Positions 11,936 to 51,152 of a DNA stretch of 64,000 nucleotides are shown here, piece after piece. Below the pieces are notes generated by a model. The model saw only the letters and a list, made by a program, of their open reading frames with translations, ran no database searches and had not been told where the DNA came from. Source of the DNA: Limisphaerales bacterium (lineage in GTDB: Bacteria; Verrucomicrobiota; Verrucomicrobiia; Limisphaerales; SXTU01). Within the stretch, counting starts at the first letter, position 1; every line of letters starts with the position of its first letter. The translations under genes were made by a program, and so were the position numbers. Location of the stretch: the NCBI GenBank assembly GCA_009773355.1, contig WRPG01000001.1, forward strand, positions 124,001-188,000, given 5' to 3'.

Positions 11936-13690
11936 CTATTTCCCCGCAGCCACCCCGGCGTCGAAGACGCCGGTCAGCACGCGCCCCTCGCACTTGACTT
12001 GCACCCAGAGCCGGTAGCGACCGGCGCTGGGGAACTCGTAGGGGAATGAGACGAAGTTCGTCGGGCCGATGGCGGGCGCGGGAGTGGCAGTGGTGGGCGG
12101 AACATCCCTCGATTCATTTGCCTTGATCGTGCTGTCTCGCTTCTCCTTCCGCTCTTCGCGTTTGACGAAGACTTCCTGCGCGGCCATCGAGATGGTTCCC
12201 ACCGGATGCAGATGCGCGAACACGCCGCCGTCCGCGCGCCGCACTGCGGCGTGGCCGCTCATGCCGATGTAAGGCTCTAGCAGCGCGGGCGTGCCGTCGG
12301 GCTTGAGCACTTGGAAGCGCAGCGGGGCTTCGCGCTTCGTTTGCAGCGCGCCGGACTTTTCCCAGTGCATCACGAATCCGTCCGACAGCCGGCAAGTGTC
12401 CGGCCCGCTCGCGGGCAGCGGATCGCCGAAGTGCCAGGAGTCGTCCGGGTCGAAGGCGATGGCGGAATCGTCGCCCGTCGCGCGGCGCACCGGCACGCCG
12501 CAGAACGGGTCGGACGCGCCGGCGCGACGCGGGACGTTGGCGAGCGTCGCGGGCGGCTCGGGCAAATCGGCTTCCGCCGTGAGCGTCTGCGTGAAGCCGC
12601 TTTCGTGCGTCACGTCCGCGATGACCGCGTAGCGGCCCGGCGGCAGCGGCGGCAGCGCGGTTTCAAACGTCAGCCCCGCGCGCTGCACGGGATGCAGATG
12701 CGCGAACGTGTCCGGCTCCCCGGCGCGGATGAGGAAGAGGTGCATGAGCTTGCCGTGGTCGGGCGCGAGCGGCGTCCATTGGCGCGGGCCGCTGGCGGTG
12801 TCCACGCGCAGACGCAGCACGGACAGGCCGTTGGTGGTCGTGACCTCCGCGTGCATCGGCCACGGGCGGTAGAGGCGGTTGGTGCGGTAGTCACGGTCCA
12901 CGGAGTCCCACCACGACTTGCCGCCCACAATCAAGCCGGTGAAGAGCAGCGCGCTGGCAAGCTGGGCGAGCGTGGAACGCAGGCGGACAGGCCGGGAAAC
13001 CTCCTCGCCGGGCGGCAAGACCGACTCGCCCCACGCCGCGCCGACCAACTTGACCGCCGTGAGGAAGAGAAGGACGCCCGCCACGATGAGCACCGCTCCG
13101 AACGCGGGCGTCATCTGCTTGCGCTCCATCGCGGCGTTGTTGACCGGCACCATCACCTCACCGGAGCCGCCCGCGCCCTCGACTTGGACATGCACGCTGT
13201 AAGCGCCGGGCGTCATCAGCCAGAGCGTGGCGGCGTAAAGATTGGTCTCACCGCGCACGGGTTGCGCCACGTCGGGCGGCGGGGTGCCGCCCTTGCCGGC
13301 GCGCCAAAACACCGGCAGGACCGCGACGCGCGTCACGCCCGGTCCCAGCGCGCGCACGGAAATCTCCGCCAGCCCCGGCACAACCTCCGGCGGCCGCACC
13401 ACCACGCGCACGGGATGCGGCCCGGCCCGGCCCTCGAAGACGACGTTCGGGCTGCCGATGTGCGCCGCGACTGGGAACGCGAGCCACAGAAGGAGCAGGG
13501 AGAGAAGCCAGCTTTTGCCACTAAAAAGCACAGAAGGCACAAAGGGGAAACGCTCAACGTCCAACGTCCAACATCCAACGTTGAACGAACGCGCCGCTGG
13601 ACGTTGAAAGTTGAAAGTTGAGCGTTGGACGCTTCCGCCCTCCCTCTCTGCGCTCTTTGCGCCCTCTCGCGGCAAAGGATTCTTGCTCAT
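11936..13690 (-). CDS. secreted/membrane protein with FixH/YtkA-like beta-domains, function unknown
   Basis: 584 aa. The ATG at 13690 overlaps the upstream stop as ATGA, so the start is well supported. Codons 3-59 are encoded by a nested inverted repeat; only then comes the signal peptide KSWLLSLLLLWLAFPVAAHIG. The extracytoplasmic part has a beta-domain, one membrane segment (GAVLIVAGVLLFLTAVKLVGAA) and a further hydrophobic stretch. A His-containing domain (HLFLIRAGEPDTFAHLHPV) recurs in simpler form as HLHPVGTISMA. The His-rich blocks and HIG start recall copper-handling or FixH-like proteins, but I cannot name the function. It is translationally coupled to the membrane protein upstream. 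Confidence 0.8.
   Translation of the reverse strand: MSKNPLPREGAKSAEREGGSVQRSTFNFQRPAARSFNVGCWTLDVERFPFVPSVLFSGKSWLLSLLLLWLAFPVAAHIGSPNVVFEGRAGPHPVRVVVRPPEVVPGLAEISVRALGPGVTRVAVLPVFWRAGKGGTPPPDVAQPVRGETNLYAATLWLMTPGAYSVHVQVEGAGGSGEVMVPVNNAAMERKQMTPAFGAVLIVAGVLLFLTAVKLVGAAWGESVLPPGEEVSRPVRLRSTLAQLASALLFTGLIVGGKSWWDSVDRDYRTNRLYRPWPMHAEVTTTNGLSVLRLRVDTASGPRQWTPLAPDHGKLMHLFLIRAGEPDTFAHLHPVQRAGLTFETALPPLPPGRYAVIADVTHESGFTQTLTAEADLPEPPATLANVPRRAGASDPFCGVPVRRATGDDSAIAFDPDDSWHFGDPLPASGPDTCRLSDGFVMHWEKSGALQTKREAPLRFQVLKPDGTPALLEPYIGMSGHAAVRRADGGVFAHLHPVGTISMAAQEVFVKREERKEKRDSTIKANESRDVPPTTATPAPAIGPTNFVSFPYEFPSAGRYRLWVQVKCEGRVLTGVFDAGVAAGK
13513..13680. repeat. nested heptamer inverted repeats inside a gene's N-terminus
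   Basis: The outer arms (13513-13548 and 13643-13679) are of the GCAAAGG type. The inner arms (13551-13587, units like CGTCCAA, and 13597-13632, units like GTTGAAA) are a second type. The 168-bp block begins 10 bp inside the start codon of the 11936-13690 gene and stays open in its frame. Confidence 0.8.
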
Positions 13691-26173: not shown

Positions 26174-27682
26174 TCATGCCAGCAACCCCGGCACGACCTT
26201 TCCCGCCACGTCCGTGAGCCGGTGCTCGCGCGCCTGGAACTTGTAGGTCAGCCGTAGATGGTCAATGCCCAGCGCGTGCAGCATCGTCGCGTGCAGGTCG
26301 TGGACGTGGACCGGGCTGTCCACCACGTTGTAGCCGAACTCATCCGTCGCGCCATGCACCGCACCGGCCTTGAAGCCGCCACCGGCGACCCAAGACGTGA
26401 ACGCCCGCATCTGGTGGTCGCGCCCGTAATTCTCCGACTTCGCGTCGCCCTGCGCCATCGGGGTGCGGCCAAACTCACCGGTCCAGATGACCAAGGTGTC
26501 CTTGAGCAAGCCGCGCTGCTTCAAATCCCGCAATAACCCGGCGCACGGCTGGTCCACCTTCTTGCACTCCTGAATCATGCGGCCTTGGATGCCATCGTGA
26601 TGATCCCAGCCGCGATGATAAAGCTGGATGAACCGCACGCCGCGCTCCGCCAGCCGGCGCGCGAGCAGGCAGTTCGCGGCGAATGTGCCTGGCTTGCGCG
26701 CGTCCGGACCGTAAAGCTCAAAGATGCTCTTCGGTTCCTTCGCGAGGTCGGTCAGCTCCGGCACGCTCGTCTGCATCCGGTAAGCCATCTCGTATTGCGC
26801 GATGCGCGTGGCGATCTCGGGATCACCGACCGTCTCCAGCCGCGACTGGTTCAGTTCGCGAACGCTGTCGAGGATGCGCCGCCGCATCGTGCTGTCCATG
26901 CCCGCCGGGTTGTCCAAGTAGAACACCGGCTCGCCCGGTGAACGGAGCTGCACGCCCTGGTGAATCGTCGGGAGAAAGCCGCTCGTCCAGTAACGCGCCT
27001 TCACGTTCTGGTCCTGGCCCTGGCCGGAGAGCAGCACCATGTAGGCGGGCAGGCTCTCGTTCTCGCTGCCGAGGCCGTAGGAAAGCCACGCACCCATCGC
27101 GGGCCGGCCCGGAAGTTGATGGCCCGTCTGCATGAAGGTGACGCCGGGATCGTGGTTGATGGCGTCGGTCTGCATCGAGCGGATGACCGTCAGCTCGTCC
27201 ATGACCTTTCGCATGTGCGGCAGCAAGTCGCTCACCTCGACGCCCGCCCGCCCGCACTTGGCGAACTTCTGGTGCGTGCCGAGGATGACCAGCGGCGCGC
27301 CCTGCAACTGCGCCACGCGCTCGCCCTTTGTCAGGCTCTCCGGCATCGGCTTGCCCCAGAGTTTGTTCAGCCTCGGCTTCGGGTCGAACGTCTCGAACTG
27401 CGACGGCCCGCCGCCCATGAAGAGGAAGATGACACGCTTGGCGCGCGGCGGAACATGGAGTTCCTTCAGCACACCACGCGGCAAGGCCGGAGTCGCCGCG
27501 CCGCTCAAGGCTCTCGCCGCCTGAAGGAAGCCCAGCGCGCCAAAACCAAACGCGCCGAACTGAAGGAACTGCCGCCGGGATGTCCACACAGATTCAGAGC
27601 GGAACACAGATGAACCAGCCCGAGTCTTCCATCTGTGCTCCGCCCCGAACCTGTGTGGCTGTGTCATCTGTGTGGTCCTCAT
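26174..27682 (-). CDS. DUF1501 family protein, Tat-exported, with repeat-encoded N-terminus
   Basis: 502 aa. It starts at ATG 27682 in an ATGA overlap with the PSCyt1/DUF1553 stop, so the two are translationally coupled. Residues about 3-33 are encoded by an inverted repeat; then comes the Tat motif SRRQFLQFGAFGFGALGFL. DUF1501 blocks follow: FLFMGGGPSQFETFDPKP, RRLAERGVRFIQLYHRGWDHHDG, TLVIWTGEFGRTP, GRDHQMRAFTSWVAGGG and VHDLHATMLHALGIDH. A GTG at the end of the repeat could be an alternative start that avoids the extension. The partner is encoded just upstream. Confidence 0.9.
   Translation of the reverse strand: MRTTQMTQPHRFGAEHRWKTRAGSSVFRSESVWTSRRQFLQFGAFGFGALGFLQAARALSGAATPALPRGVLKELHVPPRAKRVIFLFMGGGPSQFETFDPKPRLNKLWGKPMPESLTKGERVAQLQGAPLVILGTHQKFAKCGRAGVEVSDLLPHMRKVMDELTVIRSMQTDAINHDPGVTFMQTGHQLPGRPAMGAWLSYGLGSENESLPAYMVLLSGQGQDQNVKARYWTSGFLPTIHQGVQLRSPGEPVFYLDNPAGMDSTMRRRILDSVRELNQSRLETVGDPEIATRIAQYEMAYRMQTSVPELTDLAKEPKSIFELYGPDARKPGTFAANCLLARRLAERGVRFIQLYHRGWDHHDGIQGRMIQECKKVDQPCAGLLRDLKQRGLLKDTLVIWTGEFGRTPMAQGDAKSENYGRDHQMRAFTSWVAGGGFKAGAVHGATDEFGYNVVDSPVHVHDLHATMLHALGIDHLRLTYKFQAREHRLTDVAGKVVPGLLA
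27584..27674. repeat. inverted repeat (ACACAGAT type) inside DUF1501 gene start
   Basis: The left arm (27584-27612: CCACACAGATTCAGAGCGG, then AACACAGAT) is mirrored by CATCTGTGCTCCGC and CTGTGTGG at 27627-27674. It is read in frame between start codon and Tat signal of the 26174-27682 gene. A related half-element is near 8100. Confidence 0.75.
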
Positions 27683-46860: not shown

Positions 46861-46953
46861 TTAACGCAAGGGCGCAAGGACGCAGAGGCGCGGGGAAGAA
46901 CCAGATTGGGGAACATGCTTTGCGTCTCTGCGCCTTGGCGGCTTTGCGTTGAA
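46861..46953. repeat. heptamer inverted repeat (GCAAGG type), intergenic
   Basis: The left arm (AACGCAAGGGCGCAAGGACG, then CAGAGGCG) and the right arm (TTTGCGTCTCTGCGCC, then TTGGCGGCTTTGCGTT) are near inverse copies around about 28 nt. It starts 3 nt behind the transferase stop. Confidence 0.8.
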
Positions 46954-48986: not shown

Positions 48987-50726
48987 TTACCAGCCCGCCG
49001 CCTTGCCATCGGTCACGCGGGGGTCGTGGGCACCGAGGAAGGCTTTGCCGTCTTTCGTGCGGCCGATGGCCTGGCACGCGCCGATGGAATCGAGTTCCTT
49101 TAGCTTGTGGCCACGGCGTTCCAGCTCGCGGCGCAGCTCGGCGGGAAACTGTTTCTCAATTCGCAGCTCGTCGGGACTCCATTGCTGGTGGAAGCGCGGC
49201 TGGGCGAGCGCCTCCGCCGGATTGCGCCCGAAGTCTATCGTATGAAGAATGGCCAGCAGCGTCTGCGTGATGATGGTCGGGCCGCCTGCCGCGCCGACGC
49301 TCAGGATGGGCTGGCCGTTCCGCAGCACGATGGTCGGCGACATGCTGGAGAGCGGGCGCTTGCCGGGCGCGACGGCGTTGGCCTCCGCGCCGACGAGGCC
49401 GAAGAAGTTCGCGGTGCCGGGCTGCGCAGAGAAGTCGTCCATCTCGTTGTTCAGCACAACGCCGGTGCCGGGCACGACGACCTTCGAGCCGTAGCTCGTG
49501 TTGATGGTGGCGGTGCAGGCCACCCAGTTGCCCTCGGCGTCGGCGGCGGAGAAGTGCGTGGTGTGCTTGCTGAAGACGTCGCTCGTGGCGTTCGGCGGGG
49601 TGTTGTGCTGCGGCACGGGCGTGGCCTTCTTCAAATCAATCTTCTTGGCGAGTTGTGCGGCGTAAGCCTTGTCCACGAGGCCGCGCGGGACGGGCGCGAA
49701 GTCGGGATCTCCGAGCCAGTGCGCGCGGTCGGCGAAGGCGAGTTTCATCGCCTCTGCGACGACGTGGACGAAGTCCGGCGAGTTCGCGCCGAGCGCCCGG
49801 AGGTCGAAGTGTTCGAGGATGTTGAGAATCTGCGCGACGTGGACGCCGCCGGAACTGGGCGGCGGGAAGCCGATGATTTCGTGGCCGCGATAGGTCGTGC
49901 GCAGCGGCGTGCGGGGCTTGGCGACGTAGCTGGCGAAGTCCGCCTCCGTGAGCAGACCGCCATTGGCGCGCATCCAGTCCGCCGTAGCCTTGGCGAAGGG
50001 GCCGCGATAGAACCAGTCGCTCCCCTGCTCTGCCAGCGCGCGGAAGGTCTTGGCGAGGTCGGGCTGGCGCAACGTGTCGCCGGCCTTCCATGGCGAGCCG
50101 TCGGGCCGGAGGAAAATCGCGCGACTGGATGGAAACTTCTCGATGTCCTTGGTCACGCCCGCGAGGCGGCTGGCGTAGTTGCGCGTAACGGGGAAGCCGC
50201 CTTCAGCTGTCTTCGCGGCGGTCAGGCAATGGTCCTTCCATGACAGCTTGCCGAACTTCGTCACGGCCTGGTGGAACGCGGCGACTTCGCCGGGCACACC
50301 GGAGGCGAGTGCGCCGGTCTGGCTGAGTTCGGCGACGGCCTTGCCTTCACGGAGGAACATGTCGCGCGTCGCCTTCGCCGGGGCCATCTCGCGCCCGTCA
50401 ATCGCCACGACTTCGCCGTTGGCGCGGCGGATGACAAGGAAGCAGCCACCGCCAATGCCGGAGTTGTGGCTGTCCACGACGCTGAGAGTGAGTCCGGCAG
50501 CGACGATGGCATCCACGGCATTGCCGCCGCGCCGCATCGCATCCACGGCGGCATCGGTCGCGAGCGGGTGGACGGTGACGGCCATGCCGCGCTCCGCCGC
50601 GAAAGCACCGAGGGGGAGGATTTGCCACAAGAGGGCGCAAAGAGCACAAAGAAAAGCGGAGGGAGAGATTTCTTTGCGGACTTTGCGTCCTTTCGCGGCC
50701 AACCCTGAAGTGCGGAGCTTCTTCAT
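48987..50726 (-). CDS. ggt: gamma-glutamyltransferase
   Basis: 579 aa, Ntn hydrolase that cleaves gamma-glutamyl bonds (glutathione, peptides) in the periplasm after self-processing. The processing/nucleophile Thr is in KHTTHFSAADAEGN (about 390); other blocks are NSGIGGGCFLVI, RPLSSMSPTIVL and GAAGGPTIITQTLLAIL. The N-terminal 8-35 residues are encoded by a heptamer inverted repeat, and the hydrophobic stretch SAFLCALCALLWQILPLGAFA, serving as signal peptide, lies largely in it. The cupin gene upstream ends 12 nt before the ATG at 50726. Confidence 0.93.
   Translation of the reverse strand: MKKLRTSGLAAKGRKVRKEISPSAFLCALCALLWQILPLGAFAAERGMAVTVHPLATDAAVDAMRRGGNAVDAIVAAGLTLSVVDSHNSGIGGGCFLVIRRANGEVVAIDGREMAPAKATRDMFLREGKAVAELSQTGALASGVPGEVAAFHQAVTKFGKLSWKDHCLTAAKTAEGGFPVTRNYASRLAGVTKDIEKFPSSRAIFLRPDGSPWKAGDTLRQPDLAKTFRALAEQGSDWFYRGPFAKATADWMRANGGLLTEADFASYVAKPRTPLRTTYRGHEIIGFPPPSSGGVHVAQILNILEHFDLRALGANSPDFVHVVAEAMKLAFADRAHWLGDPDFAPVPRGLVDKAYAAQLAKKIDLKKATPVPQHNTPPNATSDVFSKHTTHFSAADAEGNWVACTATINTSYGSKVVVPGTGVVLNNEMDDFSAQPGTANFFGLVGAEANAVAPGKRPLSSMSPTIVLRNGQPILSVGAAGGPTIITQTLLAILHTIDFGRNPAEALAQPRFHQQWSPDELRIEKQFPAELRRELERRGHKLKELDSIGACQAIGRTKDGKAFLGAHDPRVTDGKAAGW
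50621..50702. repeat. heptamer inverted repeat (GCAAAGG type) encoding ggt leader
   Basis: Left arm 50621-50659 (TTTGCCACAAGAGGGCGC, AAAGAGCACAAAG) and right arm 50669-50702 (TTTGCGGACTTTGCGTCC, TTTCGCGGCCAA). Open in the minus-strand frame of ggt, starting eight codons after its ATG. Close relative of the blocks at 596 and 13513. Confidence 0.85.
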
Positions 50727-50738
50727 GGGAATGGAATT

Positions 50739-51068
50739 TCACACCACCGTCAGCGGGCCATCGAAGATGGTGAGGCTGGTGACTTCCGTCTTGGCGAAGT
50801 GCGGGCCGTGGCGCTCGCCCTTGGGCGCGTGGAAGAGCGTGCCGGGGCCGTAGGTCACGTCGGACTCGATCCACTCGCCGGACAGGATGTAAGCCCACTC
50901 GTTCGTGACCGGGTGCGTGTGGGCGGGGATGCTGGTGCCAGCGGTGAACTTGCGCAGGACGACCAGGCCGCCGGTGGCTTCGTGCTTGTGAAGGATCTTC
51001 AGCTCAACGCCGGCGTAGGGGCCGGGCTGCCAGGGCTTGTCGTTGGCGTGCGCCAAGTATTGGAACAT
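50739..51068 (-). CDS. small cupin protein
   Basis: 109 aa single-domain cupin: LRKFTAGTSIPAHTHPVTNEWAYILSGEW carries the metal-binding H-x-H and Glu, and GTLFHAPKGERHGPHF the last His. Related proteins include ChrR-like anti-sigma cupins and small oxygenases or isomerases; the substrate is unknown. Immediately ahead of ggt on the same strand (12 nt), so probably cotranscribed. Confidence 0.85.
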   Translation of the reverse strand: MFQYLAHANDKPWQPGPYAGVELKILHKHEATGGLVVLRKFTAGTSIPAHTHPVTNEWAYILSGEWIESDVTYGPGTLFHAPKGERHGPHFAKTEVTSLTIFDGPLTVV

Positions 51069-51152
51069 GGGGTGATGGCAACCGCTGGCCAACGGTTTGG
51101 CAAGTCTGGGGACGCGGAAGGCCAGGACGATTGCTGCTGGACTAGGAGCCGG

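Follow-up and report, generated by a model that had tools for sequence, protein, structure and literature searches.

RU-2, a 168-bp enterobacterial repeat, forms the predicted signal peptide of the Yersinia pestis protein YPO1552, while the signal peptides of the YPO1552 homologs are unrelated (Delihas, 2007; PMC2759123), so the principle of a repeat-made signal peptide is not new. The Rickettsia palindromic elements (RPEs) are palindromic repeats that lie in frame in protein genes and are retained across species (Ogata 2000, 2002, reviewed in PMC10969869). The GTAG/CGTC REP elements are dispersed palindromes found mostly between genes, with some in ORFs, among them ORFs of the verrucomicrobium Opitutus terrae, and some at N-termini (PMC3733652).

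In this study, the gamma-glutamyltransferase gene (ggt) of a Limisphaerales bacterium was analyzed within a window of 64,000 nucleotides, the whole stretch of DNA examined, to which all coordinates refer. Like the RPEs, the repeat at the 5′-end of ggt belongs to a dispersed palindromic family, lies in frame in a protein gene and is retained in relatives; unlike the RPEs, which occupy many unrelated metabolic genes, it was found in one gene, at the signal peptide, and the 18 other copies examined are intergenic. It also differs from the REPs, which measure 20–40 bp, carry a GTAG or CGTC tag and have RAYT transposases, since the ggt repeat is about 80 bp long and the ends of its 12-copy consensus carry no such tag. 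The ggt case goes beyond YPO1552, described as a putative exported protein, in that it involves another repeat in another phylum and a core enzyme, draws on both repeat arms, is conserved in nine species and comes with signs of selection on the leader, whereas the portion of PMC2759123 dealing with YPO1552 reports no selection test. Very probably, a repeat copy was captured in frame as the ggt signal peptide in the ancestor of the genus, and its hydrophobic core has since been kept by selection.

The Ggt leader and the repeat family it belongs to

The ggt product scored 523 bits against TIGR00066 (cut-off 358) and 578 bits against PF01019. The full chain of 2e0w, the best solved relative, aligned from residue 43, and solved small-subunit chains aligned from residue 389; residues 1–43 were therefore assigned to a leader, and the alignment to solved Ggt places the predicted cut between the large and small subunits before residue 389. 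The mature enzyme begins at ERGM in the alignment to solved enzymes. The features of the locus are as follows.

48987..50726, minus strand: ggt, gamma-glutamyltransferase, 579 aa including the repeat-derived leader (TIGR00066, PF01019)
50726-50595, minus strand: Ggt leader, reading MKKLRTSGL-AAKGRKVRKE-ISPSA-FLCALCALLWQ-ILPLGAFA/A (slash, predicted cleavage)
50700..50726, minus strand: codons 1–9 (MKKLRTSGL) with the start codon, outside the repeat core (ortholog alignment)
50669..50699, minus strand: 5′ repeat arm on the coding strand, in which codons 10–19 (50670–50699) form the basic n-region AAKGRKVRKE (sequence, nine-ortholog alignment, pN/pS 0.92)
50655..50668, minus strand: repeat loop, essentially codons 20–24 (ISPSA) (sequence)
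50624..50654, minus strand: 3′ repeat arm on the coding strand, codons 25–34, the h-region FLCALCALLW (sequence, pN/pS 0.33 over codons 25–35)
50595..50621, minus strand: codons 36–44 (ILPLGAFAA), outside the repeat core, with the end of the h-region and the predicted signal peptidase I site AFA/A (sequence)
50739..51071, minus strand: upstream cupin gene (PF12973/PF07883), with its stop 12 nt ahead of the ggt start; syntenic anchor for the leader
50616..50708, no strand assigned: copy spanning the entire dispersed inverted repeat of ~80 bp, together with the flanks that the model takes in (79.1 bits against the R1 covariance model, E 2.6e-20 for a search of the window)

The hydrophobic stretch FLCALCALLWQIL corresponds to Ggt residues 25–37. 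A sequence-only reading of this DNA had traced it to the right-hand part of an inverted repeat, which holds for residues 25–34, encoded by the arm at 50624–50654; the other arm proved to be coding as well, since it specifies residues 10–19 of the basic n-region, and therefore nearly the whole module of n- and h-regions is repeat-derived. The same reading had stated that no other hydrophobic segment precedes the mature protein, and the alignment of solved Ggt chains from about residue 43 agrees with this. It had also named a better downstream start with its own signal as an outcome that would speak against it; the in-frame starts that follow in ggt are TTG codons, still within the leader, and the ATG for the methionine of ERGM (codon 48), already in the conserved protein, and none has its own signal.

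The leader resembles a Sec/signal peptidase I signal peptide in all three parts. Its n-region carries a net charge of +4, with basic residues in every ortholog, and its h-region, for which about 7–15 hydrophobic residues are expected, reaches a best 9-residue Kyte-Doolittle mean of 2.96 (2.28–3.00 across the nine species that carry the leader). Small residues at −3 and −1 (A-x-A) are present as AFA/A, and by eye A/S-x-A recurs in eight of nine orthologs, the exception being PFAA in genome G006. Judged from these sequence features, Sec targeting, cleavage at AFA/A and a periplasmic location of Ggt are predicted.

The family consensus is GCCGCGAAAGGGCGCAGAGAGCACAAAGA...loop...TTTCTTTGCGnnCTCTGCGCCCTTTCGCGGC, and the R1 covariance model was built from 12 genome copies, the ggt copy among them. 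A DNA search of the host genome with the ggt leader stretch gave 18 further matches, the best other copy at E 2e-13, and a degenerate 28-mer allowing ≤3 mismatches gave 20 matches in the genome versus 0 for the reversed control. With the covariance model, at least 32 distinct genomic places, including ggt, were recovered at E ≤ 2e-4 among the 150 scored of 2153 first-look candidates, and on the whole-genome search the ggt copy scored E about 1e-18 with both arms and the loop covered. Every one of the 11 genus genomes contains the family, as do 17 of the 30 genera sampled. It has terminal inverted repeats, which in a MITE would be accompanied by a target-site duplication and a mobilising transposase, and no match above threshold was obtained for it in Rfam.

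Further R1 matches in the window lie at 589–705, 13508–13682 and 46873–46940, and another inverted repeat, of the GTCCAACGTCCAACATCCAACGTTGAAC type, lies in the loop of the copy at 13508–13682, making a nested palindrome. In the flanks of two other copies of this genome (L002 on C18 and L008 on C132), the repeat is bordered by another repeat of CACGGATGAACACGGATGAACACGG-like units, and the two families tend to co-occur between genes.

Signal peptides are low in information content, so that an ordinary signal peptide might come to resemble the repeat by chance or convergence, and a hydrophobic Ggt leader without the repeat does exist in one relative, G003. However, the similarity spans both arms and the loop at the genome-wide E-value given above, the independent DNA search matched the best other copy at E 2e-13, and the ggt copy is a palindrome with 26 of 34 arm positions matched, in addition to the empty reversed-pattern control. 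The two-arm match excludes chance resemblance in the window species, and the probability of this explanation is practically negligible.

The leader in relatives and the age of the probable insertion

Of the ten genus genomes that have an orthologous Ggt, nine share this leader in the same frame (this one, G001, G002, G004, G005, G006, G007, G009 and G010). The cupin gene directly precedes it in eight of these nine carriers as far as the alignment shows, while the stretch upstream differs in G002. The tenth genome, G003, has an unrelated Ggt leader, and in other families of the order Ggt starts with a hydrophobic leader that shows no relation to the repeat. Relatives sharing the leader but lacking the repeat, the other outcome that could have countered the earlier proposal, were not seen, as the repeat stands at that place in every carrier of the genus and both G003 and the other families differ.

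The ggt gene tree is weakly resolved within the genus, and the compared genomes are draft MAGs. In the rpoB tree, G003 groups with G001 inside the genus (100/98), and in the gyrB tree with G004 and G005 (91/96); the two trees concur that G003 is nested in the genus, but not on its sister. The insertion therefore predates the split of the sampled species, and the leader of G003 is a later replacement. The view of G003 as a basal keeper of the original leader was dropped after these trees. When the G003 leader was compared with the repeat for remains of it, four of the five comparisons did no better than codon shuffles and the fifth was only marginally better (2%). That G003 does without the repeat counts against the capture reading.

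Selection on the arm that encodes the h-region

A signal peptide is expected to keep the character of its core, and of its n-region no more than the charge. By the Nei-Gojobori method, the nine leader carriers gave pN/pS ratios of 0.92 for the n-arm, 0.33 for the h-arm (codons 25–35), 0.43 for codons 36–44 and 0.15 for mature Ggt. None of the nine leaders contains an in-frame stop across ~3.5 four-fold substitutions per site, and indels occur in multiples of three. The h-region is thus constrained by selection while the n-region sequence and the palindrome drift, as expected of a signal peptide, and this codon-level purifying selection in nine species indicates that the sequence is kept as protein.

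For a neutral expectation, the majority sequence of the leaders was evolved on the tree of four-fold sites, which has a total length of 3.5 substitutions per site, under two base-composition models. An h-arm pN/pS as low as that observed arose in 0 of 2000 runs with either model, in simulations that begin from the post-insertion sequence and contain no repeat-specific mutation or gene conversion. The observed mean hydrophobicity was reached in 0 and 0.05% of runs, respectively, and in nearly every run one or more lineages lost the hydrophobic segment.

Compared over a shared 27 nt in the leader frame, the 18 repeat copies elsewhere in the genome gave a pN/pS of 0.44, versus 0.30 in the orthologs, so these paralogous copies also favour synonymous sites and part of the low h-arm ratio could be built in. 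On this basis, the leader might be repeat-derived and its h-region ratio yet be a by-product of repeat mutation or gene conversion, with selection on the peptide weak or absent. The leader of G009 (L018, on C351) is in keeping with conversion, being, unlike its relatives, an almost perfect palindrome (28 of 34 positions, −44.4 kcal/mol), which could reflect either gene conversion from another copy or slower decay. In contrast, the orthologs show a lower ratio than the paralogs despite a higher pS (0.49), codons 36–44 outside the repeat are similarly constrained, and the arms are diverging in G001, G005 and G006, where the original arm match is largely lost. We consider such a by-product very improbable.

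Many intergenic palindromes act on mRNA stability or translation, and at ggt the repeat could accordingly be untranslated, or translated only incidentally, with the true start at ATG codon 48 and the palindrome serving as a 5′ hairpin. The copy in this genome (G000) folds strongly, at −37.7 kcal/mol, and all 18 other own-genome copies examined lie between genes, many of them 0–60 nt from a gene end. Over-called starts are known where palindromes fall on ORF starts (PMC3733652), and the window holds an over-extended start of this kind at a DUF1501 gene, whose palindromic segment is missing from the orthologs. Against the hairpin reading, pair counting over the ggt copies showed no excess over shuffles (84.0% paired vs. 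83.2%; covariation 0.139 vs. 0.130), which leaves a hairpin function unsupported, and the pairing is degraded in several lineages, whereas the h-arm and codons 36–44 are constrained and the frame stays open in nine lineages. A start at codon 48 would, moreover, strip Ggt of any export signal, whereas the relatives in other families have hydrophobic leaders. An untranslated hairpin is therefore rated improbable: constraint on the h-arm, an open frame and covariation not beyond shuffles together point to selection on the peptide rather than on a hairpin.

The DUF1501 palindrome differs from the ggt repeat. It is ~74 bp long (CCACACAGGTTCGGGGCGGAGCACAGATG...CATCTGTGTTCCGCTCTGAATCTGTGTGG), lies at 27584–27657, spans the N-terminus of the longest DUF1501 reading (26174–27682, minus strand) and immediately precedes a twin-arginine motif, SRRQFLQ. 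DUF1501 orthologs match only from residue 31–35, so the start is probably a GTG inside the palindrome or nearby, and this palindrome was rejected as a second case of leader capture because the orthologs lack that segment. DUF1501 genes are strongly amplified: at E ≤ 1e-50, this genome has 53 matches and the other genus members have 22–59.

Coding potential of the repeat and proposed origin of the leader

The repeat was translated from 17 copies on both strands, and a frame was counted when it was open and encoded a net charge of at least +2 followed by a 9-residue stretch of mean hydropathy ≥2.0. This basic-then-hydrophobic order appeared in 28 of 102 frames (about 27%), compared with 2.6% of first-order Markov shuffles and 0.95% of flanking windows from this genome. 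Since both strands of a copy were counted and are not independent, the count was also halved, which still gave p about 2e-16. The bias arises because the A/G-rich arm (AAAGG, CGCAAAG) encodes Lys and Arg, while its complement (CTTTGCG, CCTTT) encodes Leu, Phe, Cys and Ala.

A leader profile was run against this genome, the 11 genomes of the genus and 320 of the order, and ggt was the only clear N-terminal use. The other strong matches that were read lay between genes, out of frame within real genes or in short frames. Two genes identified by eye, CinA (C68) and one that is arsenate-reductase-like (C63), stand just behind a repeat copy, with their ATG after it. As the other examined copies are intergenic, ggt represents one capture; the order-wide search was confined to a single frame and a strict threshold and may have overlooked further captures. 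It is conceivable, though doubtful, that the family is pre-adapted as a genome-wide reservoir of ready signal peptides, with ggt as one fixed capture and others in related genomes.

For ggt, the best reading is a predicted functional signal peptide built from the repeat. In the ancestor of this verrucomicrobial genus, a copy of the dispersed palindrome would have inserted in frame at the 5′-end of ggt, insertion being suggested here rather than recombination, and one arm would have been read as the lysine/arginine-rich n-region and the other as the cysteine/leucine-rich h-region of a Sec-type signal peptide. What lies on either side of the repeat core, ~9 codons at the start and a short end with an A-x-A signal peptidase I site, is probably left over from an earlier leader. 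The resulting 43-residue signal peptide would have taken over from the earlier targeting signal, after which selection would have preserved the hydrophobic core and left the palindrome to drift. The sequence-only proposal of a selfish repeat turned into a targeting signal is supported as a reading by the repeat-bearing leader in nine species and the purifying selection on the h-arm, the repeat being putatively selfish and export presumably leader-driven.

The origin of a new bacterial targeting signal is seldom caught in sequence. At ggt, the sequences show which DNA was the source, where it went and what became of it: a noncoding palindrome appears to have supplied both parts of a signal peptide, and the nine species reveal what selection kept, the hydrophobic core, and what it released, the n-region sequence and the palindrome. 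Palindromes with one purine-rich and one pyrimidine-rich arm naturally encode charge and then hydrophobicity, which makes them apt as a source of signal peptides.
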